Assembly: GCF_042453785.1 (NCBI RefSeq)
Contig: NC_091674.1
Coordinates: forward strand, 28,469,501 to 28,533,500
Length of the DNA: 64,000 nucleotides
Direction: 5' to 3'
Source of the DNA: Malus domestica
Lineage: Eukaryota; Streptophyta; Magnoliopsida; Rosales; Rosaceae
This document shows positions 8,960-62,653 of the stretch, one piece after another (within the stretch, counting starts at the first letter, position 1; every line of letters starts with the position of its first letter). Made by a program: the position numbers and the translations under genes. Under the pieces are notes generated by a model that saw nothing but the letters and a program-made list of their open reading frames with translations, made no database searches and was not told the origin of the DNA.

Positions 8960-9160
8960 CTCTAAAAAAATCAAATGATAAAAATTATTTAAAAAAATAA
9001 AAATTAATAAAAAGGATTTGAAAACTTTGAGTTTTAACGATAAGGACAAAATAAAAGGTAAAGTGAATAGTACTAGGATTAACTTTTTAGTGTAAAAATA
9101 TTATTTTTCGTTAAAGTGAACAGTATCAAGAACTTTCCGTTAAAGTTCCCTTTAAAAAAT
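8960..9160. mobile_element. Dispersed repeat, AACGAAAAAC family, copy 1
   Basis: Carries the block TTTTAACGATAAGGACAAAA, then GGTAAAGTGAATAGTAC, then TTTTTAGTGTAAAAATA, then TTTTTCGTTAAAGTGAACAG. The same ordered blocks occur at 32712-32865, 49197-49345 and 61440-61580 in either orientation. About 150 bp, non-coding, MITE-like. Confidence 0.7.
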
Positions 9161-21142: not shown

Positions 21143-21472
21143 ATGCGTTTGGTACGCAGACGGAACGGAACGGGACGGGACGGGACGGAACGGAACGGGA
21201 CGGGACGGGACGGGACGGAACGGGACGGGACGGAACGGAACGAAGGTGTAATTTTTGAAAAAGACATGGGGTATATTTGTCTTAAAATGGTAAAACATTG
21301 CGTTCCACAAACGTGGAACAAACCCGTTCCAGGGAGGGAGGTGGAACGCAAAAACACTCAAAATCTGTCCCGTGGAACAGCCCGTTCCACCCATTTTTGG
21401 CGCACCAAACGCGGGACGGAACGCCTCGTCCCGTTCCGTCCCGTCCCGTCCCACGTACCAAACGCACCCTAA
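21143..21472. mobile_element. Second Tourist-like element with (GGGAC/GGAAC)n interior
   Basis: Starts TGCGTTTGGTACGCAGACGG and ends with the inverse CCACGTACCAAACGCACCC, followed by TAA. It directly abuts the first element. Positions 21166-21242 are a pentanucleotide array of GGGAC and GGAAC units, with the inverse composition near the right end, so single strands could fold into a long hairpin. Open frames here are compositional artefacts. Confidence 0.75.
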
Positions 21473-22817: not shown

Positions 22818-23905
22818 GGACCAAAATATCGGCGAAATATCATCGATATTATCATTTTTTTCATATGACGATATTTCGTGACTTATCTTTTAATTATCGT
22901 TAATATATCGCGATATTATCGATAATATTACGATATGAAATAAAAAAATACTTGAAAATTTCTGAAAAGTCTCAATTTTGAGCATAGAAGGATTCAAACC
23001 CTTCCCATTTATCTCCTTCAACGCCTTCACCACCATATCACTTATGTTTTTGTGATAATATGTTAAAATATTTATATATATGGTTTTGTTTTGAATTCTT
23101 TTTTACAAGAAACAAATTTGCACATATTCCAAAATTTTTGTGGTATTATATTTTAAATTGTGTCAATTAATTACTTAGTCAATGACATGTGGTTTTTAAT
23201 TTTTCTATTTTTTATTTGGCCACTTACATGGTAGGGTTGGAAAAAATTCCCGAAAATCCCAAACCAAACTGAAAAAGTCCCAAACCCAAACCGAAAAATC
23301 CCAAACCCAAACCATCCTGAAAAATACCGAAATTTTCGATATGGGATTGGTTTCCAAATCCTATTTGTTTGGTAATCCCGAAAAATACCGAAGTATTCGG
23401 TTTCCTATTGACTTTTGGGTTTTGGTTCTTGAAAGCCATTGCCATGGTTGTTGACTACTTTCACAATACACTTACTCTACACATAGAAATGATGAATATA
23501 GTGAAAATTTTGAACCTCATAGGAACTCTATGTGGTACTAAGTCACTCATGTATCTTACCATGCAATGTATAAAGTGTAAAATATTGTACTAATTCATTA
23601 TATATAACTGATTATGGTGTGTTTAAACTTATTTCATTAATTACTACATATTTTCTATATTCACAATATTTGCCAGCTTGCTATATAATCAACTTAAATC
23701 AGTTAAATCCATCATGCAATACATTTCCTTCCAATTTTTTGTGATAAACTAATAGATAATTGACTAAATAAACATCCTGCAAAGTTTCAACAAAAATTTC
23801 CAAGTTTTACTTACAATTTCCGTGGTTTTTATTCAATTTTTATCAATATCGATAATATCCCGATATTTCCATCAAAATTTCCGTGTTTTTAGATTACCGA
23901 TACGG
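22818..23905. mobile_element. ATATCGATA-rich dispersed repeat, copy 1
   Basis: Edges are dense in ATATCGATATTATC-type words. The interior shares long stretches with 56755-57425: AGGATTCAAACCCTTCCCAT, GTGATAATATGTTAAAATAT, GAAAATTTTGAACCTCATAG and TTTCCGTGGTTTTTATTCA. About 300 bp (roughly 23110-23440) have no counterpart in the other copy and include GGTTGGAAAAAATTCCCGAA, so another element is probably nested there. No transposase frame was seen. Confidence 0.65.
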
Positions 23906-32711: not shown

Positions 32712-32865
32712 GTTTTTTTTTTGGAGTTTTAACAAAACACTTATGGTACTGTTTATTTTTAACAAAAAACCATATTTTTACTTTTAATTGACACTATTCA
32801 CTATACCTTTAAAAATGATTTTTCGTTAAAAGAGAAGTTTTTTTGGACTTTTCGTTAGTTTTTTT
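32712..32865. mobile_element. Dispersed repeat, AACGAAAAAC family, copy 2
   Basis: Ordered blocks GGTACTGTTTATTTTTAAC, AAAAACCATATTTTTAC, GACACTATTCACTATACC and TTTTTCGTTAAAAG match the family at 8960, 49197 and 61440. Confidence 0.65.
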
Positions 32866-33202
32866 TTTTTTTTTTCATACACAGTGGGAAGTTCGGAATC
32901 TCCACCGGTATAAACAAGAACATAATTTCTTAATCATTCGTAAGTACAAACTTCACATTACATTTTTACACTTTGAATTGTTTATGGGTTTTTGCAAAAA
33001 ATCGTGGAGATATCTAAAGACAGTCTCCATAAAGCCAGTTAACAGCTTCCCGAAAAGATTCTTGAATGTTGAAACGCAAAAGTTTCAGTCCCGTGATATA
33101 TTCTGCTGCCACGCTGCATCGAAAACATTGATGTAAGGGATGGAACACCATGGAAGTGAGAATCAAATTGTAAACAGAGAATCCACTACAATTTATACTT
33201 GA

Positions 33203-41219: not shown

Positions 41220-41389
41220 GGGTAATGCTAGGGAGATTAAAATTTTAAACCAAATTTGCAAGTCAAATGATGTGTCACCAATATGAAATAAGCACGTGAT
41301 CAATGCTTAAGTAGTAATCCAATTGTCAACAATCACATCCTTTGATATGCAAATTTGGTTTAAAAAATTTGGTCTCCCTACCATTATCC
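41220..41389. mobile_element. MITE, GGTAATGYTAGGGAGA family, copy 2
   Basis: Left GGGTAATGCTAGGGAGATTA, AAATTTTAAACCAAATTTGC and right GCAAATTTGGTTTAAAAAAT, TTGGTCTCCCTACCATTATC form about 40-bp terminal inverted repeats. It sits about 70 bp past the DCTPP1 stop, so it may be in the 3' UTR. Confidence 0.85.
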
Positions 41390-41806
41390 TTTTTTTCTAT
41401 ATGTATTTTGGTAAACTCTTGCTGCTTATATTTTCTAGCGTTAGATTGTCAACTATGATCGAAGTTTTGTTTTTGGAGGAATCTACTTCCTTATCCTTCT
41501 TAATAATAACTGAGCTGGACTTACTTTTTATACAAACTATATTCTATCCTAAACTCATCTAAACTATGGGGAGGAAGATCGAATAAGGGTGCGGAGGGAC
41601 AAACACATTCATCTAGCCAACTTGAATAAACCTACGTCTGCTAAGTTGGACTTTAAACCCAAGTGTGTCAGATGAATCAGTTGGACATTGTAGTCATTTC
41701 ATTTTACTATTATTATATATATTGGTTAGGGTTGATAATCTGCAGTGCAAAACTGATGATGCAGTATTTAATCTAGGCCATTACTTTAAGCTTAACAGAG
41801 TAAGTA

Positions 41807-43779: not shown

Positions 43780-43975
43780 TAGGGATCCGTGAATTGTGTC
43801 TGTTCATCTACATCGTGTGATCATAAATTATTTTAAATATTTTTATTTAAAATTAAATACAAACAGTACTCGATAAAAATTGACCGCACAATATACGATG
43901 AACAAACACGATTCACGGATCTTCAGGATCCTCATCAAAAGATCCAAAGAGGATCCTATTGGGCATCCATTGGGC
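43780..43975. mobile_element. Foldback MITE, GGATCC family, copy 4
   Basis: GGATCCGTGAATTGTGTCTG, TTCATCTACATCGTGTGATC on the left, and GCACAATATACGATGAACAA, ACACGATTCACGGATC on the right, form the inverted arms. The same GTGCGATC...TATACAATAAACGGTC layout occurs at 58808-59012. Confidence 0.75.
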
Positions 43976-46310: not shown

Positions 46311-46861
46311 ATTATCAAATTTTAAAATAAAAAATGTACACTCACTCATTTAGCTTTGAAATTTAGCATCAAGTTTTACACTATATGGATTACTCTTTAT
46401 TTCTTACCAAATTCCAGTAAATTCACTTTGTCACTTTTTGTGAGGAGGAGGGTGTTATAGTTTCTTTGCGTGCAAGTTGATGATATCACATTCATATCCA
46501 GAATCTTGACCTCAAACAATTTTCCATTGAACATCTAAATAAAGTAATTAGCGCTTATTTTTACCATTGTCACTCAACTCTTGCAATTCAGAAATTTTTT
46601 AGCATGTCGGGCACACAGTCCAGTTTACCAAATATAATATTATAATTAGTTGAAAATTTGAAAAAAAATTATTTTTAGCTACGTCTCTTGGAACTCAATT
46701 TTAATCTCATTTTGCTACTTGTAACTCAAAAGTCGCAACTTTACGCATTGAAACTCAAAGTTTGCTTCATTTTGCCCCTGAAACCTGAAACTTGAAATCG
46801 TCTCTATAAAACTTAAAGTAGAACGAATTGATTTATTACAATTTTTATTGCATATTTTAAT
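46311..46861. other. Intergenic DNA, no gene seen
   Basis: Nothing supported. Confidence 0.4.
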
Positions 46862-47032
46862 GGGTAATGTTAGGGAGACTAAAATTTTAAACCAAATTTG
46901 CAAACCAAATCATGTGTCACCAACAAAAAATAAGCACGTTAATCAACGTTTAAGTAATAATTCAATCATCAACAACCACATCATTTGGTTTATAAATTTA
47001 GCTTAAAAATTTTAATCTCCCTGCCATTACTC
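46862..47032. mobile_element. MITE, GGTAATGYTAGGGAGA family, copy 3
   Basis: GGGTAATGTTAGGGAGACTA, AAATTTTAAACCAAATTTGC, AATAAGCACGTTAATCAACG on the left and AAAAATTTTAATCTCCCTGC, CATTACTC on the right. Very close to the copy at 41220. Confidence 0.85.
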
Positions 47033-47262
47033 TCTTTTAATTAGTTTTTTTCTTCCTTTATCTTCTTTCTTTGATTTGAAGTTTTTTCATGCGACGTAAC
47101 CTTGTAACTAATTCATTAAAGTAACAATTACGTCTTCGTCGTGTCAGTTGTTCTCGAGGCTTTAGTCATTAGCACCACTCAACCACAATGATTATATTGA
47201 TTAGATTGTCATATTTGGCAGAATATTTTTGGAAATAAAAAAATAAAAATTACACACACAAA

Positions 47263-49196: not shown

Positions 49197-49345
49197 AGAA
49201 ATTTTAACGAAAACTCCACAGTATTGTTTACTTTAACGAAAAACTACATTTTTACACTGAAAAGTCAAACTTGATACCATTCACTTTACCCTTTATTATT
49301 TTATCTTTAACATTAAAATTCAAAATTTCCAAACTCTTTTCTTTA
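49197..49345. mobile_element. Dispersed repeat, AACGAAAAAC family, copy 3
   Basis: TTTAACGAAAACTCCACAGT, TTTAACGAAAAACTACATTT, ACACTGAAAAGTCAAACTTG, CCATTCACTTTACCCTTTAT. It ends about 60 bp before the CT-rich leader of the DUF863 gene, so it sits in that gene's promoter. Confidence 0.75.
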
Positions 49346-50503: not shown

Positions 50504-53500
50504 ATGGGGGCAAACATCCAGTGCAACAGCTATTTCCCAGGATATTATGCCTCAGGGAATCATAACTTAATTGCTAATGACAGTAAAAGGAAGCATAACT
50601 TATCTACGGACCATTTCGAGTACTACAAGGAGGCACTAAAGCAGACAATGCTCAAGCAAGACACAATATTTAGGAATCAGGTATACTATTTCATCCATTC
50701 GTGTCGTGAATAATATGCAGCATTTTGTATTTATTGAGCTTAGTACATTCAAATCATTTTGTCATAACTCTTCCTAAACCAATTTTCACTTGTCACTTGT
50801 TAATACTTAGAATGGTTCATAAACAATAAATTGTAGTTGCGGCAAAACATCGAGTCATAATGTAATGAAAACCATGCTGCTATCTTTTGTTTTGGCCACA
50901 ATATCTTTGGTATTCGCAAGTTTTATAGAATTTCACAAACACTTAAATATGCCTATATTGTCTTCTGTTCATCCAGGTTCAGGACCTTCATCGGCTTTAC
51001 GGAAGACAAAGGGAATTAATGGATGAAATAAGAAGGAATGAATTCGAGAAACATCAGCAGAAGATGGAGGCTTCATGGTTGACTACTGATTTGTCTCGGA
51101 GCTCATCTGTTTGTGTTCAAAAGACACTTCACGTTCCTTCCTTGCCTTTGGTAAACCCTGCATGCAGTCAAATCTCTGTTTCTGTTGCTGAAAGTTTCCA
51201 GTCACCTTCATGTTTTGTTCGAGGGAGGGACATACAGACATGCTCTTATCCTACTCAAACTGAAGGTCGTTCAGGAGACTCTGAATCGTTGGAATCCAAA
51301 TGCAACAAATTTCAGAAGAACTTCTTGGATCTCGAACTTCCAGCGGATGCATACATTGATGATGAAGGAGAAGGATTCTTAGTAGATGGAAAGGTTTCTG
51401 AAGCACCTCAGGTTTCAAGTTCTCGTTTGATAAGATTTCCGGAGGCTGTATGTAATGGTGATGCAAAACAATTTCTTGGCACTGATGGATATAGTTCTGT
51501 TTCGGAAGATGATACGTCAACTACTGCATCATTACAAAAAGGTTCAGTTGGCTTAAATTATCTGCATAAGCTTGAGAAAGGAACATCTCCTACATCAGGC
51601 CTTCAGTTTTTATCTAAGGAATATATCCAAGACACCTGGAAAAGACAGGATTTTGAAGTTTGCTCAAATGTCCTACTGCAAGAGAGAAAAAGGAAACAAG
51701 AGTTGCCGTCCACTGACGAAGCTGGTAAGAATTTTACTGTAAGGTGGAAATAAAGCTCCAGTTTCTTCATTTTTTTTTTCTTTTAAAGAATTACAACTCT
51801 TATAAGTATATTTATTCTTAGTTCTAATACTACGATAATTTGTGATCAGCTTGAATAGCTATAATCACCGGAAATGTTCTTATATTGGATGTGTTTATCT
51901 TTCAGAGAAAAGGAAAAGAACCTTGAATTCTTTTCCTCCAGGATCTCATGCAGATAAATTATGTCCTTCATCTAGTTTATTGCATGAGGAGCTCAAGGCA
52001 GCTGAACCTCCAACCCTTCATCAGAGTAACCAGAATTCATGGAGTGGAAGAACAATTTTCGGTCTACAGAACCCCAGAAGTTATAGCCAATCTGGACCAA
52101 GCGGAGCTTCTTCCATGTGCACGCCATATGAACATATTCCTCAGGGCAAGATGGAAAATTCAGGGGCCTCATGCAGTGCAGCTATAAGAAAACCTGTACA
52201 TGACTTTGCACGGTTCCCAATGGCAGTTCAAGCACTCCCATGTTTTAACACCCCCGTACCATTTGGTACTTGTTCTAAATCATCAACGGTAAGGCCTGGG
52301 ATCAATGGTGACAGGCTACAGTTGAAAAATGATTTGAGATCTAGCACAAAACATGGTAGTGCCTTCTTTCTTGATGATAACTTTAGCAATGGCTCCCAGT
52401 TGGAATCCAAGAATTCACAGCCACACATCAGTTTTGATAATCTGATCCGGACCAGTGACAATTTAGTGATTGAACTGCCTGGAGTAAAAAAAGATGTGAT
52501 GGATTCCGCAAATATCAAGTCTCTTAAGGATATTAACTTGAATTGTGTGCCTACTGGCTGTTCTCTGGATGCGGCAGTTTCTCAGTGTTTCCAAGCCACA
52601 ACCGGATCAGAAAAACTTGAAGCTTCTTGTGAGAGCTTGCCTTGGCATAGGCGAAAGCTTAATGGCAAAACTGACAAAGGATGTGAAGATTCAACCCAGG
52701 CGGGGGCAAGTGATTTCTCAAGTAAAATAATTCGTGAGTCTACTGGCCACCCCTCCAATTCCATTCTGAACCCACCTGAAGAAGTCAAGAAAAGAAGAAA
52801 AGTGGTGGTACTTGATTTAAACGCTGATTGTGATTCAGTGCTTGATGCAGAAATAGAACTTACAGGTCAGGTAGTAGAGAATGAATTTGATAGGAAAGAT
52901 TTTGGATTTCAAATTGCCCTGAACTCGTCCACAACTGGAGATGGGTTTTCACCAGCAAACTCTCTCTCAACTGGAATTCTTTTGGAGGCACCTGCTAGTC
53001 CAGAAAACAAGGAGTGTTCTCCACCAAGAGGAGAATCGGACGAAAATCAAGTTGAGACACCTTTTCTATTGCCAGGACAGGATGATCCGGAAAACAATGA
53101 GTTTTCTCCGCCGATAATACAATTTGATGAAAACCAAGTTGTCAGGAATGCAGCAGAATCTTTGGTTTCCATTTCATCATTTGACCTTCGTAGTTGTATC
53201 ATAAGGACCACGGACAAGCCACTTAAAAATTCATGTGCCTCCCTATGTTGGTTTGCTGGGATAGCATCTTCAGTTGTAGGTGGTCAAGAGAACGAGGGTA
53301 GAGTGGTTATCAGCGAGGAGCTTCTACCAGATGGAATGGACTACTTTGAGGTCATGACCTTGAGTTTAACTGAGACAAAAGTGGAAGAGTGCTGCTGCTG
53401 CTGTAGAAGTAGTGGCCACAAAAAGGAAGAGCCGGGTACCACTTCATTACCAAATCAGCCAAGGAAAGGCCGGAAGAGGGGAAGGCAGCGGAAGGATTTC

Positions 53501-53842
53501 CAGAGTGAAATTCTCCCAAACCTTGCTTCTTTGTCAAGGCATGAGGTGACCGAAGATCTTCAGACAATAGAAAAGTTAATTGAGTCTTCTGGTACAACAA
53601 GGTCGGTTAGATGCGCAACTAAACTTGGGTTGGCGAGGGGGAGGAAAAGGTCCAGCATTTCTCCGTCCACTGTAACCGAGAATAGTTTGGAATCACTGTT
53701 GACGCAGATTGGTGCCAAAAGTCAGTTCGGAAAAGGGGAGAGAAGTATGATTTGTTGGGGACAGGTAACTAGGCGGCATAGAGGGCAGAGATATCCAGTT
53801 AGCAAGCCTTGGCTTATTTCAGGCCAAGCATGGCAAGAGTGA
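50504..53842 (+). CDS. DUF863 family protein, 953 aa, function unknown
   Basis: Plant-specific DUF863 protein (Arabidopsis relatives At1g13940, At1g26620, At1g69360), large and mostly disordered, probably nuclear. Exons: 50504-50680, 50977-51724, 51906-53842, GT-AG with matching phase. The N-terminus MGANIQCNSYFPGYYASG and the helix EALKQTMLKQDTIFRNQVQDLHRLYGRQRELMDEI are the family signature. Later come basic KKRRKVVVLDLNADCD, the conserved block LCWFAGIASSVVGG...ELLPDGMDYFEVMTLSLTE, a basic cluster GRKRGRQRKDFQ (likely nuclear targeting), and a C-terminal WGQVTRRHRGQRYPVSKPW. VLDLNADCD and DLELPADAY carry a DLN/DLE-L-type motif that could recruit TOPLESS corepressors (inference). Acceptor usage at 51906 keeps the frame (GAG AAA AGG). 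Length agrees with the family. Confidence 0.9.
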
Positions 53843-54588: not shown

Positions 54589-57500
54589 TTAAATAGGAAA
54601 ATCAAAATCTTGAGGCCCAAGTTGAGTAAAATGTGGACTTTGAAGAGCCTCTTGAAGCAGATCATGATCATCCCACGAATCCCTATATGTTTCTAAGTCG
54701 GTGTCAGCATTTCTTAGTGCCGAAAGGCAAAGCTCTTTCCTCCATTCTTCCAAATGTGGGAACCCTATGTGATCCCCATATCTATCACAATACTGCAACA
54801 ACAAGCAAAACAAAAATGGTAGAGACCTTAGAATATGAGCAACAATGGCTTTACGAGTCACTGTGATCAGTAAATATGATATAGGTAATTTTATGGAAGT
54901 TTACCTCGAACTCGGCGATGTCGTGGGTGTTATGCTTCGGAATGCCAGCAACATCCCTTGAGTGGTAGAACTCCTTGATTGACTGCATCATGTCATCCCT
55001 TGATGGCAATGTTGTTTTGCCAGAGAGCAGTTGAGCTGTCCATTTTGCTTGTGACTCAAAAAAAGGAAACCCTATGATCTGGATCATATTGATTGATTAA
55101 TAAATATCATTTTTCACAAAAATTATTAAATTAGAACAAAAATTCTACCACACTCCAAAATACTCTATATTTTGAAGATTTTAAGTGTTAAATTTTTATC
55201 ATTGTATCTTTAACTAAAAATATGTTGTACATCTATATTTGAACGAATACTAGAAATTCTCGAATTAGATACGTTTAAGTTACCTTTCTAGGAATGCCTA
55301 CAAATGATAAAAAGGGAGCAAGCGATGGAGGGAAGGTATGCTCATACAAAGGCCCCACTCTGTCATCATCCACAGCTACTATTCCTTTGGTGTCAAGAAA
55401 GGGGAATGTGTATGAATACCTGCACACATCCCACTTGGAAAAATTAGTTTATAAACCAATTCAAAGGAATACAACTAGATGTGGTTCCATAATTTTAGTG
55501 CGGGGCCCACACAAAGTCTTTCAGTCAAAGGTCAAAAGACTACGGGTATCAATCACTTTCCAAAGCAAGTCCATCGTACGATCCGAAGGATATATGTTAT
55601 GCGGTTGTATTTCAAATTAATCACGATACATAATAGTACGTGAATGACTTTAAAATGTTATCAAATTGTCACAATAATATTCCATGTATAAATGATATTG
55701 GGTTGAAAATTTACCCAGTACAATATATGATAGTGTCTGCAATGATCCAAGAACCGTCTACAAATAACACCTTCCCGTCTTCTTGAAGTACATCTATCTG
55801 CATTTGGTTGCATTTAAACATTACATAGACGAAATCTGTTTGAACATAGTTTTATTCATAGTCTGAAATATTGATAATATCGATGAAATATGGAGGATAT
55901 TTCGGTTTTTTCGAATCACGGATATTTCAGAACATATCCATGTACATATCGTACGAATATTGACATTATTGATGATAATATCGGATCTATCTGCATTTGG
56001 TTGCATTTAAACATTACATAGACGAAATCTGTTTGAACATAGTTTTATTCATAGTCTGAAATATTGATAATATCGATGAAATATGGAGGATATTTCGGTT
56101 TTTTCGAATCACGGATATTTCAGAACATATCCATGTACATATCGTACGAATATTGACATTATTGATGATAATATCGGAAAATATCGATGTCGATAATTTC
56201 ACTCACACTTCAGCAATATTTTGTCAAAATATCGGTGTAATATCGCTAAAATATCAAAAATATCGATGTAAAGGAAGGAAAAAAAAAGAAAAAAAAAAGA
56301 AAAAAACATAGTCTGAAATATTGATAATATCGATGAAATATGGAGGATATTTCGGTTTTTTCGAATCACGGATATTTCAGAACATATCCATGTACATATC
56401 GTACGAATATTGACATTATTGATGATAATATCGGATCTATCTGCATTTGGTTGCATTTAAACATTACATAGACGAAATCTGTTTGAACATAGTTTTATTC
56501 ATAGTCTGAAATATTGATAATATCGATGAAATATGGAGGATATTTCGGTTTTTTCGAATCACGGATATTTCAGAACATATCCATGTACATATCGTACGAA
56601 TATTGACATTATTGATGATAATATCGGAAAATATCGATGTCGATAATTTCACTCACACTTCAGCAATATTTTGTCAAAATATCGGTGTAATATCGCTAAA
56701 ATATCGAAAATATCGATGTAAAGGAAGGAAAAAAAAAGAAAAAAAAAAGAAAAAAAGGGCAAAAAGGGAGGAAAAAAAACACAAAGGGGATTTGAACCCC
56801 TCCCATTTTACTCCTCCAACATCGTAACCATCATATATCATTTATGTTTTAGTGATAATATGCTAAAATATTTATATTTATATGAGTATCATGTTAACAA
56901 TTACATACAAAACTATTTTGAGGATTTATCATTTGATGAATACTCTTCACAATAAACTTACCCTACACATAGAGATGATGAAGATAGTGAAAATTTTGAA
57001 CCTCATAAGAAGAGAACTTTATGTGGTACTAAATCACTCATGTATCTTACCATGCAATGTATAAAGTGTAAAATATTGTAGTAAATCATTATTTGTAAAT
57101 GATTATGGTGTGTTTAATTTTTTTTTCATTAATTACTACATATTTTCTATACTCACAGTGTTTGTCAGCTCGCTGTATAATCAACTTAAATTAGTTAAAT
57201 CCATCATGTAATGCATTTCCTTCTATTTTTTTATAAACTAATAGATAATTGACTAAATAAACATTTTCCAAAGTTTCAATAAAAATTTCCAAGTTTTGCT
57301 TACAATTTCCGTGGTTTTTATTCAGTTTTTATCGATATCAATAATATCCCGTTATTTCCATCGAAATTTCCATGTTTTTTTACTACTGATATTTCCGATA
57401 TTATCGATATTTTATACTATGGTTTTATTTGCTTATAATCCAATCCTAAAGACGAAACGCGACGTTTCGCTGTAGAAGCTAATTTCTTGTACCTGGGGAC

Positions 57501-58740
57501 GAAGGTGCCAGTTTTCATGTTTGGTAATGACTTTGGACAAGCCCTCAGATATGTCAAGAGATTTGCCACTGAGGTAGATTGCCTTTGCCACATCCACTAG
57601 TTCCATTGATATATCTTGCCCACTTAGTGAAGTTCCAACCACCACCACAACCTGCAAATAGAGCACAAGGATCACTTCATCTCTTTTGTGCTAGAAACTT
57701 CCGTTGATCTATATGATATTATGTTAGACGACTACAAGTCTCCCAACGCTCTTAAGTTGTCAAGAAGTGAACCTACAATATGTTTCAAGCTAATAATCTA
57801 ATTAATAATTAACTACTATAATGCCTTGCCTCATCACGAAATGGCTCCGGAACCCTGTAAATGTGACTATGCATTTGCTTCCTCTTCCATGCATCCATTC
57901 CTAAACATGACCAAATTAAACCCACCTCAATTAAAAAGAAATAAAAAGGAAATAGAGAAAAAGAAAAAGAAAATTGAAACAACATATGATTATGATTATT
58001 AAAAAATGTGATTGTTATGCACTTGAGCTGTTCCTTTTAGTACCGTGTCATCGTCCATTTTCATATGAAAAATAAAGAGTTAAATGTATGTCAGTACGTA
58101 ATTGACCAAGATTAATGTTACAACAAAATTCTTGTTAGATATGACCTAGCATGGAACTAAAGAAATTGATCTAGTACGTACCTTTAATGGAGGGCAACCT
58201 TGGCTTAGAGTAATGACCGGTGGCCACAACCACCGCATCAAACACCTCCTCCACGAAACTCTCGGTCTTATTCTCCACACTCTTCACAACCCATTTCAGA
58301 TCTTTGCAACCAACTACATGATCTCCATTCAACATCCCCACATATGAAACCCTAGTATTGAACCTTATCAACTCTCTCAACCCAAACCAATCACAAAAAT
58401 CCTTGAGGTACAAAAGAAGCTCCGTATGGCCAGGAAACCTCCTCATGTCCCTACCTTTCTTGACTGCAAATGGAAAGTCAGTGAACCCCATAATCTCTCT
58501 TGGAGATATGAGCCTCAAAGAGGTGTAAAGACTGCTATGCACTTTTAGGGTAGGTGACCTTCCTAAGGGATCCTCTCCCTCCACATTTGGGTCGTACAGC
58601 CACTGCCCTCCCACATCATGGTTTTGTTCCAACACCACCACACTGTGACCTTCTTTCCTCAGCTCCCTTGCAGCTACAAGCCCTGAGGGTCCAGCTCCAA
58701 TCACGCATACATTTTTGGATTGGTAAGTTTCAGAAGCCAT
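54589..58740 (-). CDS. Flavin-containing monooxygenase, FMO GS-OX-like
   Basis: FAD- and NADPH-dependent monooxygenase of the plant S-oxygenation clade. My seven exons: 58740-58182, 57900-57830, 57651-57493, 55797-55715, 55419-55284, 55078-54905, 54792-54589, giving 461 aa, normal for the family. FAD site GAGPSG (15-20), GGQW (44-47), FMO motif FPGHTELLLY (102-111), ATGHYSKPRLP at the exon 1 end, NADPH site VVVVVGTSLSG (211-221). The tail reads YCDRYGD...FPHLEEWRKEL...YRDSWDD. Intron 2 has a GC donor (GAG|GCAAGG). Intron 3 is 1.7 kb and filled with ATATCGATA repeats. Arabidopsis relatives oxidise methylthioalkyl glucosinolates; outside Brassicales the substrate is unknown, so another sulfide is likely. 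A partial paralogue of its 5' end lies upstream at 61274. Confidence 0.92.
55792..56757. repeat. Nested tandem duplications carrying a copied splice acceptor
   Basis: ATCTATCTGCATTTGG begins at 55792 (where it spans the real exon 4 acceptor), 55985 and 56435, giving offsets of 193 and 450 bp. The 126-bp stretch from CATAGTCTGAAATATTG to GATGATAATATCGG appears four times (about 55856, 56049, 56307, 56499). The longer units continue with ATATCGATGTCGATAATTTC and an A-rich end. Copies are almost identical, so duplication is recent. Confidence 0.92.
56758..57425. mobile_element. ATATCGATA-rich dispersed repeat, copy 2, inside FMO intron 3
   Basis: Shares GGATTTGAACCCCTCCCATT, GTGATAATATGCTAAAATAT, GAAAATTTTGAACCTCATAA, TTTCCGTGGTTTTTATTCAG and the ATATTATCGATATTTTATAC edge with 22818-23905. 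It forms the far side of the repeat-filled intron. Confidence 0.75.
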
Positions 58741-58807
58741 GGTTGGTCTATGGGTAGGCTTGTGGATTTTTATTTTTCTCTTCTGGGTGTGGGAAATTTG
58801 GGAAAAG
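58741..58807 (-). promoter_or_regulatory. Immediate 5' flank of the FMO gene
   Basis: This stretch is closely conserved in the second copy at 61306-61370 (GTGGATTTTTATTTT and CTGGGTGTGG blocks), as part of the segmental duplication. Confidence 0.6.
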
Positions 58808-59012
58808 TCGCCGGATCCTTTTTTTGAGGATTTTAAGAATTCTGTAATCGTGACGTTTATTATACATTGTGCGATCAGTTTTTGTAGGTATTATTTATAT
58901 TTAATTTTAAATTTTGAAATGATTTCTGACCGTACGATATACAATAAACGGTCAAGATCACGAAATCTTTAAGATCTCAGGAAAATGATCCTCACCGGAT
59001 CCTTTTCCGGAA
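58808..59012. mobile_element. Foldback MITE, GGATCC family, copy 5
   Basis: CCGGATCCTTTTTTTGAGGA, GTAATCGTGACGTTTATTAT, ACATTGTGCGATCAG on the left and CTGACCGTACGATATACAAT, AAACGGTCAAGATCACG, CACCGGATCCTTTTCCGG on the right. It lies in the FMO promoter and is absent from the second copy, so it inserted after the duplication. Confidence 0.75.
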
Positions 59013-59293
59013 TTTTGTTGATGATGTCGATGGGTTTATATATATATATAGTTCATTTTCTTCACGCAAACTGATGGAAACAAAATTATATATATATATA
59101 TATATATAGTTCGTTTTGTTCACGCAAACTGATGGAAACAAAATTGATAACAATGTTGTAGTCATGGTCTGATGGGGATGGTTTGTTAGCTCGGAGACAA
59201 CACTTGATAAATTAAAGTCAATGCCTAAAAGTTGTCTACTTTTAACTAAAAAGTTTACTTGCTTGAAATTTTCCAATCTCATCTTTTGTTATT

Positions 59294-59463
59294 GGATAAT
59301 GATAAAAAGACTAAATTTATAAATAAAATTTTAGAAATTAAATAATATGTAAATTGATGATTGATTTATTATTTAAACGTTGATAAACGTGATCATTTTT
59401 ATTGGTGACACATCATTTAGTTTGTAAATTTTGTCTTCAAATTTAATCTCTCTGACATTACCC
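59294..59463. mobile_element. MITE, GGTAATGYTAGGGAGA family, copy 4
   Basis: GGATAATGATAAAAAGACTA, TTTTTATTGGTGACACATCA, TTTAATCTCTCTGACATTAC, in the inverse orientation. It interrupts the duplicated FMO upstream region. Confidence 0.75.
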
Positions 59464-59629
59464 TTTGTTATTTGTGATCATCATCATCATGTCCCAACCA
59501 AAATTGTCTAAAGCCAATTAAACGACTTTGGATTATATGCAGGCTCATGAATGCAAGTTTTTAACAAATGATATTATCTGCACTAATGGGTTGAATGAGT
59601 GGGCTAAACCTCACAATAGACTAACATTA

Positions 59630-59762
59630 ATGTGGTTCAAATTTGTCTTTGACAAGAATTAAACCTAAGACCTTTCACTTATAAGTGAAGACCACTAAAC
59701 CATAGTACTAAGTGACTGCAAGTTCAATTCAGTCCTTATAACTTTTCATAAAAAAAAAAAAA
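59630..59762 (-). repeat. Dispersed repeat with GGTTTAGT/AAGTTCGATT family, inverse copy
   Basis: AAGAATTAAACCTAAGACCT, TTCACTTATAAGTGAAGACC, CTAAACCATAGTACTAAGTG is the inverse of 35240-35365. Confidence 0.5.
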
Positions 59763-60183
59763 AAAAAAAGAATGCTAGGGAGATCAATGCTAAGGATACT
59801 CTCTTTTGATAACCTTCAACTTCACAATTTAATGATAATTTTTATGCTAATATTATAAAAGATTATGTCAAAAAACAAAAATATGAGCACAGTAGCACTC
59901 AACTAACCTCATTTTACAAAATTATAAACCTTTACTTTAACGTTCTTACACGTCGATTCCAGCTCCACACACGTTCTTTTGCACGTTGATCCACCCACGT
60001 TCTTGGTCGCGTCGAAAGGATATTTTATGAAAATCTCTTTTGATTTCAATACTGTTTGAATACCAACAAAACGAGACGAACCTTCATCCAACAGCAGTAC
60101 AGAAAAGGAGTTAATGGGCATCCCATCAAGGTTGGATATTAACTTATCATGGATTGAATTTTCTACTTAGATATATTCGGTAA

Positions 60184-60356
60184 GAATAATGCTAAAGAGA
60201 TTAAATTTTGTAAATTAAATTTTTAAAAATCAAATGATTTGGTTGTAGATGATTGAATTATTAATTAAGTGTCGATTAATATGCTTATTTTTTATTGGTG
60301 ACACATCATTTAATTTGCAAATTTGATTTATAAATTTGGTATTCGTAAAATTATCC
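60184..60356. mobile_element. MITE, GGTAATGYTAGGGAGA family, copy 5
   Basis: GAATAATGCTAAAGAGATTA, TATTGGTGACACATCATTTA, ATTTGATTTATAAATTTGG. Diverged, and inserted into the duplicated region. Confidence 0.65.
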
Positions 60357-60440
60357 ATATATGTTTTCTCTGGTTAGGGTACCAGTGTCACCATTTTTTC
60401 ACATAAATTAAAGGGTGCATGTGTAATTTTGTTCTCTGCA

Positions 60441-60743
60441 AAATTTTATGCAAATATTATTGGTGTAGAATTTACTTATCAAAGTGGTCGGCATTGCCTT
60501 TCGTTGCAAAGTGACTTTTTAGTGTTGTTTTCTTTCTTCATTTGAATGATTTTGATCCTTCTTGGGTTCTTTGTACACAATGCTTATTCGTTTGGTTTGC
60601 ATGCGTGACATGAATAAACACATGCATGCAGACTAATTGGTATTTCCACCGATACTGATATTCCACACATATAGTATATAAAAAGCTCATATACTGACAT
60701 CCAGGGCCTAGACAAAACATGCATCGCTATCAGATCAAACAGA
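60441..60743. other. Intergenic DNA, no gene seen
   Basis: Nothing supported. Confidence 0.4.
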
Positions 60744-60882
60744 GGGCATGAACACCTCTTTTTACTTCTTACACACCCTTCTAATTTTCAGCCGTTAAAT
60801 CGGATAAATTGAAGAAAATAAAAAAACAGAAATTAACAAGAGGTGTGTGAGAAGTAAAAAGAATGTGTGAATAGCACACCCC
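60744..60882. mobile_element. MITE, GTGTGCTATCCACAC family, copy 3
   Basis: CACCTCTTTTTACTTCTTAC, ACACCCTTCTAATTTTCAGC on the left and AGGTGTGTGAGAAGTAAAAA, GTGTGAATAGCACACCCC on the right. Confidence 0.8.
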
Positions 60883-61089
60883 GTACTTTAATTATCCAGG
60901 GTTGTGTACCTATCTAATTGATCTTATCACACATTAAACTACAGTAGATATCAACAGAAACATGTACAATAAACAAATTAACACCATCAAATCAAATTTT
61001 AAAACTACTAAATGTTGATATCATTCATGCATATATATCATCCATCAGTTTCAGTCAATGTTTAAAATTTCTTCAATACAGTTGATTTT

Positions 61090-61273
61090 AAATTCACCTC
61101 ATATCGGATAAACTCTTAAATTTAGGCTAAATTGACGAATATCGTCATATTTCTGACACATCGGTTGAATATCGGAGAAACTCTTATATTTCGTCTAAAC
61201 CATATTTAACAAGCCGTAAAGTTTCATTTTAAATTTCCATCATTTTTATCGAAACAGCCGATATCGATATTCG
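61090..61273. mobile_element. ATATCGATA-rich repeat fragment at the FMO copy breakpoint
   Basis: AAATTGACGAATATCGTCAT, GAATATCGGAGAAACTC, CATCATTTTTATCGAAACAG, CCGATATCGATATTCGATAT. This is the same word style as 22818 and 56758. It meets the truncated FMO start exactly at 61273/61274. Confidence 0.6.
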
Positions 61274-61305
61274 ATATTTTTGGATTGGTAAGTTTCAGAA
61301 ACCAT
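61274..61305 (-). pseudogene. Truncated FMO paralogue, first ten codons only
   Basis: An ATG at 61305 opens MVSETYQSKN on the minus strand, against MASETYQSKN in the intact FMO. After the AAAAAT shared with the FMO coding sequence, the reading enters ATCGAATATCG repeat DNA. Everything beyond codon ten is missing, so no enzyme can be made, but the upstream region is retained. Confidence 0.85.
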
Positions 61306-62130
61306 GGTAGGTCTAGGTTTAGGGTTGTGGATTTTTATTTTTATTTTCTGGGTGTGGGGAATTTGTTGTTGTTGAATGGGGTTTTATAGTTGAATTTTCT
61401 TCACGCAAACATATGGAAAAAAAAAGGAAAACCAATGAGAAGGGTTTGAAAACTTTGAGTTTTAATGATAAAGACAAAATAAAGGGTAAAGTGAATAGTA
61501 GCAGGTTTGACTTTTTAGTGTAAAAATATAGTTTTTCGTTAAAGTAAACAGTACCGTGGGTTTTTCGTTAAAACTCAAAAAAAAAAAAAAAATGATGATA
61601 ATATGTAGTTGGGAGATAGTCATAGTCTGATGGAGATGGTTTGCTAGCTGGGAGACCACACGTGACAGATTAACCTCAATGCCTAAGATTTCTCTACTTT
61701 TAACTAAAAAGTTTATACTTGCATGAAAATTTTCGATCTCATCTTTTGTTATTTGTGATGCTTCATCATCATCATCATATCCCAGTGGTCTCCAGCCAAT
61801 TAAAGGACTTTGGATATGTACAGGCTCATGCATGCAAGTTCAATTCAGTCTTTATAACTTTTCATGAAAATAAAAAGGTAAAATAATTTTACGGATTTTA
61901 TGAAAATATCTTTGTATAATTGATTTCAATAATGTCTGATACCAACTTAACGAGATGACCCTTCGTCATCCAACACAGCAGTACAGACTCAATGGGCCAT
62001 CAACACTGGACATCAACTTATCATGGAGTTTGGATTTTCTGTTTCTATATATTCTCTGGTTAATTATGGTAAATGTCACCATTTTTTTTTACAGAAATTA
62101 AAGGGTGCATGCATGTGTAATTAGCAATAT
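61306..62130. repeat. Segmental duplication, copy 2 (FMO upstream region)
   Basis: Collinear with 58741-60440 and in the same orientation. It lacks three MITEs present in copy 1 but carries its own insertion at 61440-61580. Copy 2 is therefore closer to the ancestral spacing. Confidence 0.8.
61440..61580. mobile_element. Dispersed repeat, AACGAAAAAC family, copy 4
   Basis: GGGTTTGAAAACTTTGAGTT, TTAATGATAAAGACAAAATA, GGGTAAAGTGAATAGTAGC, TTTTTCGTTAAAGTAAACAG. Same orientation as 8960; inserted in copy 2 only. Confidence 0.75.
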
Positions 62131-62653
62131 GTAAAGTGTAGGGTTAGCAAGCAGAAGAAAAGTAGTCTAGTCGCAGTCCCCACAACAGAAAGAATGCCCC
62201 ATCTTGAAGCCAAGAAAACATCAACAATCATGAAACAGTGCAGTGCACATATATATATATATATATATTAAATAAGTGAAATATTTTTTTTTATAGAGCA
62301 ATAATGTTAGTAGATTAAACAGTTAGTTGTTAGGAAAGAAAAGTTGATAAAAATCAAATTAGCTAGCACCATGATCATGGTATAAGCATAATTAATTTCC
62401 ATCATTACAATAAAACATCATCTGCATATATTATTATTGAATTGGAAAAAATTGCAATGCTCGAGCAATGAAAAAAAAACAGTTCCCCAATCCAATCGCA
62501 AGAGGCATTGACATTAAGAGCAAACATGGACCAAATTTGCGTATAATACACGCATGCATGTATTTTTTTTTAAATATTTTCATTTTTCATGCGGTCATAA
62601 CAAGACCAAATTTGCGCATATATATATATCATTTACGTATATAACGTTAACGT
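62131..62653. other. AT-rich intergenic DNA, no gene seen
   Basis: TA microsatellite at about 62249-62269. Nothing coding was seen. Confidence 0.4.

Follow-up and report, generated by a model that had tools for sequence, protein, structure and literature searches.

The promoter and first ten codons of a flavin-containing monooxygenase gene occur twice in a stretch of Malus domestica DNA: a likely remnant of a truncated tandem duplication

Introduction

In a 64,000-nt stretch of Malus domestica DNA (NC_091674.1; hereafter the window, on which all of the following rests), an intact FMO gene is preceded on its own strand by a copy of its promoter, leader and first ten codons, after which the likeness to the gene stops. 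The question raised by this locus is whether a longer second copy of the gene was cut back to its promoter, or whether promoter and start were all that was ever copied, and whether the copy may still be transcribed. The corresponding part of the intact gene is termed here block A and the copy block B.

Results

The FMO gene is predicted to encode a protein which matches the Pfam FMO-like family (E 3.3e-50; 171.5 bits vs. a cut-off of 22) in two stretches, the best of them covering profile positions 2-215 of 532. Its top solved relative is a flavin-containing monooxygenase, PDB 6wpu (E 9.4e-124, residues 8-445), which we take to be a garlic enzyme. The FMO-like domain and the nucleotide-binding start together assign the protein to the flavin-containing monooxygenases. 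In the hand gene model, intron 2 starts with GC rather than GT, at 57829. At 55792-56756, within intron 3, a 450-bp stretch is duplicated in tandem (99.8% alike), and a 194-bp unit occurs three times (100%). This unit includes the splice acceptor of exon 4 together with the exon's first six bases, so that the intron holds two surplus acceptors. Elsewhere in the window, two reading frames, 50947-51753 and 51839-53842, show matches to DUF863, a plant family, and GACGG-type units repeated in tandem every 25 bp form a short array at 21159-21242.

Table 1. Features of the FMO locus and of its promoter copy (window positions).
Feature	Position	Strand	Remarks
FMO gene, intact	54589..58740	-	seven exons, 461 aa; hand model from splice borders
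Element in FMO intron 3	55857..57421	.	inverted CATAGT ends, 8-bp direct repeat GTTTTATT
Block A: promoter, leader, first ten codons of the intact gene	58711..60470	-	upper end approximate
Insert in A, repeat-like part, between TATA run and ATG	58813..58941	.	matches 43809-43945; no clean flanking repeat
Insert in A	59294..59463	.	flanked by two copies of AATAACAAA; empty site in B
Insert in A	59560..59716	.	flanked by two copies of AACTTGCA; empty site in B
Insert in A	60183..60358	.	matches 46860-47033, 41240-41391; no clean flanking repeat
Spacer between blocks	60471..61275	.	no FMO trace found
ATATCGATA-bearing sequence joined to codon 10 of B	61191..61275	.	weakly like one end of the intron-3 element
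Block B: copy of FMO promoter, leader, first ten codons	61276..62143	-	upper end approximate
Ten codons of B, MVSETYQSKN	61276..61305	-	one base change in 30 vs. A
TATA-like word TATAAAA in B	61382..61388	-	83 bp before the ATG of B
Insert in B only	61419..61573	.	matches 8991-9144, 49202-49344, 32713-32873; flanked by a T run only
Collinear match	A 58711-58800 / B 61276-61365	same strand	90%
Collinear match	A 59136-59293 / B 61584-61753	same strand	
Collinear match	A 59464-59559 / B 61745-61840	same strand	
Collinear match	A 59717-59767 / B 61833-61883	same strand	
Collinear match	A 60022-60196 / B 61895-62073	same strand	
Collinear match	A 60360-60428 / B 62046-62122	same strand	

An earlier, sequence-only reading of this DNA had proposed that the FMO promoter and the first ten codons are duplicated with order and orientation kept, and alignment of the two blocks bears this out. 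Block B is collinear with block A on the same strand, the ATG and the MxSETYQSKN start included, with a chained score of 530.9 bits, a value reached by 0 of 200 control stretches drawn at random from window positions 1-58000 (median 0, maximum 155). Among 500 shuffles of block B, the highest single match scored 45.4 bits. Over the six collinear matches, 81 mismatches were counted in 623 columns (13.0%; K2P 0.143). This count omits the A rows 59047-59085 and 59105-59155 (39 and 51 columns), both of which share one target in B near 61385-61437 because the segment is doubled in A, and it retains small overlaps of neighboring rows on the B side, which occur at both direct repeats and around 62046-62073. 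The doubling, at 59037-59145, comprises the TATA run of block A and the bases following it, in 51-base copies that are 96% alike; block B has a single, more distant match. Judged by eye, a faint likeness seems to extend to about 60470 in A and 62143 in B, slightly past the ends given before; further likeness beyond these points was sought and not found.

Nor is the likeness between A and B built from dispersed repeats: most of the stretches which match repeats elsewhere in the window are present in just one of the two blocks. Block B bears a significant collinear likeness to a neighboring gene on the same strand, of which it keeps ten codons only, most of the parent gene being missing, as in a truncated tandem duplicate. 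A 24-base pattern taken from the shared start occurred, as expected, 0 times in viral and 0 times in prokaryote contigs. The low change within the ten codons, against 13.5% elsewhere (P 0.073), is no more than a hint that block B may once have been coding, and not a convincing one.

The blocks differ in length, about 1760 bp in A and about 868 bp in B, because inserts occupy one block and not the other. For two of the A inserts, both of which resemble stretches elsewhere in the window, the flanking direct repeats are exact, and block B carries one copy each of the repeated words at the corresponding places. As these sites are empty in B, the duplication would have preceded the inserts, and duplication followed by insertion would be the simplest order of events. 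The short repeats flanking the remaining inserts (6 bp ATATAT, 5 bp AAATT, 5 bp GGTGT and a T run) were rejected as being at chance level, given that both ends were free to shift by up to 12 bases in the search, and the A-only stretch near 59770-60010 has no flanking repeat at all.

No FMO sequence beyond the start was found in the spacer. When the full 461-aa protein was compared by tblastn with the window and with 60431-61310 alone, the second copy yielded just the first eleven residues, at the start of block B (E 0.79 and 0.004, respectively); the next match in the spacer had an E of 2.4, with no FMO beyond these residues. tblastn of other queries against the window, three of them being raw reading frames which include some intronic residues, gave no FMO remainder in the spacer. 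At the DNA level, the likeness of the whole spacer to the gene body and 3' flank was at chance level (26 of 200 shuffles equal), and for the two spacer parts which are not repeat-like, 84 and 72 of 200 shuffles did as well. At 13% divergence, a remnant of the body longer than about 50 bases should be visible. The spacer includes a repeat-like piece at 60752-60882, with matches near 29.7 and 25.0 kb. The spacer was also compared with the sequence beyond 62143 and shows no likeness to it (902 of 1000 and 149 of 300 shuffles equal), so the plain layout expected of a clean tandem duplication, whatever its size, is not preserved. With neither an FMO trace nor a repeated spacer, the spacer is compatible both with a longer copy that was later shortened and with one that was partial from the outset and then underwent other changes. 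Of the proposal that a second gene body was lost, what stands is that no body was found behind block B; that a full second gene once existed goes beyond this result.

Block B follows block A up to codon 10, ending in AAAAAT, and continues with ATCGAATATCGATATCGG to a stop nine codons later: the predicted protein start is MVSETYQSKN followed by IEYRYRLFR and the stop in B, and MASETYQSKNVCVIGAG in A. The end at AAAAAT had been read correctly. It had further been claimed that the copy there joins the repeat family which also fills intron 3, and for this part the support is weaker. The intron-3 element itself has inverted ends, equaled in 0 of 1000 shuffles, and an exact 8-bp direct repeat. Comparison of the 85 bases past the cut of B with the 57421 end of this element, which includes AAAATATCGATAATATCG when read along the gene, was equaled by 8 of 1000 shuffles; with the 55857 end and with the copy near 23.8 kb, the figures were 90 and 73 of 1000. 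For a 226-base arm, four comparisons gave 13, 2, 15 and 9 of 300 shuffles equal. The word ATATCGATA has five matches in the window vs. 0.46 expected, of which two represent a single place at the cut, read on either strand. Membership of the sequence at the cut in the intron-3 family therefore appears likely, if weakly supported and not proven. At 23448-23902 lies a second, partial copy of the intron-3 element (88.7%), where the CATAGT ends were not found.

Recombination between repeats had been suggested to explain the removal of the second body, and the joint does not show this. At the cut, exon sequence abuts repeat-like sequence directly, within exon 1, and the parent exon shares the word AAAAT with one end of the intron-3 element. 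Had two repeats recombined, repeat sequence should flank the joint on either side; such recombination fits worse than a deletion at short homology; such a deletion, or a copy that was partial from birth, would suit the joint better.

As block B lies on the same strand as the intact gene and has kept a TATA-like box, transcription from it toward the FMO gene is possible. In block A, an insert separates the ATG from the TATA runs, which are found 302-368 bp upstream of it; the insert itself contains an additional TATAWAW word 159 bp before the ATG. Words of the TATAWAW type are common in this region (1.7 per kb). The first same-strand AATAAA after the cut of B is found at 60296, about 980 bases on, and an RNA running from B would present 55 ATGs, B's own included, before the ATG of A.

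Discussion

We favor the reading that the FMO locus was duplicated in tandem and that block B is the truncated 5' part left of the second copy, the rest having been deleted, and assign this reading a probability of roughly 0.6. The second copy, complete or at least extending far beyond codon 10, would have lain upstream of the present gene; one or more deletions would then have taken everything after codon 10, the joint being formed probably via AAAAT, a short word bordering a ATATCGATA-type element. The result would be a promoter relic in decay, with a frame of 19 codons. The collinear blocks, the intact gene at A, the divergence, the empty sites in B, the absence of the body and the AAAAT joint together lead to this reading. 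Against it counts that the full second gene has to be inferred rather than seen, that the layout of a clean tandem duplication is not preserved, and that the identity of the element at the joint is weak, the remaining comparisons with the element being weaker still.

The strongest competing explanation is that the copy was partial from birth: promoter and ten codons alone would have been copied, by faulty repair or template switching, and would have landed upstream, so that no body was ever lost. In its favor, neither the gene body nor the 3' flank of FMO was traced in the spacer, and the sequence changes inside exon 1 at a short common word. A simple partial tandem copy should, however, repeat the spacer beyond 62143, which was not found there, and the fact that the ten codons differ by a single base leans slightly in the opposite direction. 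We therefore favor a longer copy later cut back, and regard a partial birth, which would call for other changes besides, as a tentative and appreciably less probable account.

That a mobile element moved the promoter fragment here by recombination or capture is very unlikely: repeat-like sequence does touch the cut, but the copy adjoins its parent on the same strand, and among the 25 listed of the 69 inverted pairs found in 58600-62600 (the other 44 being shorter), none has arms at both edges of B. An assembly artefact, in which two versions of the locus were joined end to end, is likewise very unlikely. It can occur in any assembly, and the window contains no N; a mismatch of 13.0%, together with several inserts confined to one block, exceeds what is expected between two alleles.

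The retained block might in principle act as a second promoter that survived the loss of its gene body, giving an RNA of about 2.5 kb which runs toward the FMO gene and tunes it, perhaps offsetting the insert between the TATA run and the ATG of block A. We hold such activity to be highly improbable, and both the frequency of TATAWAW words and the 55 upstream ATGs would count against it. Any RNA arising from B would most likely be a by-product.

Partial gene duplicates have been described before. In the truncated duplicates of PMC3449122, as in block B, part of a gene is copied and other sequence follows past the cut; block B differs from them in keeping ten codons only, so that the sequence shared by A and B is nearly all promoter. 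HvARM1 of the Triticeae, which derives from HvPUB15 by partial duplication (PMC6092874), is likewise a plant partial gene duplicate, but it encodes a protein with a tested function, whereas B has ten codons and no domain. In Arabidopsis, read-through RNA chimeras have been demonstrated by RNA at rearranged gene pairs (PMC6545605). They resemble the RNA proposed for B in that transcription enters a neighbor at a rearranged locus; there, an upstream gene runs on and the RNA has been shown, whereas here it would have to start from an orphan promoter. A search of the full-text literature gave no title on this locus among the matches listed, and the accessible part of PMC11197308 contains nothing specific to it.

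Block B is most likely an ordinary leftover of duplication, an event of a known kind. Its interest lies in that it offers a small, readable case in which decay has left a duplicate with little but its promoter, and in which inserts private to one copy put the events in order. If the leftover promoter were active, the locus would provide a natural test of a promoter after gene loss; otherwise, it represents ordinary genome decay.
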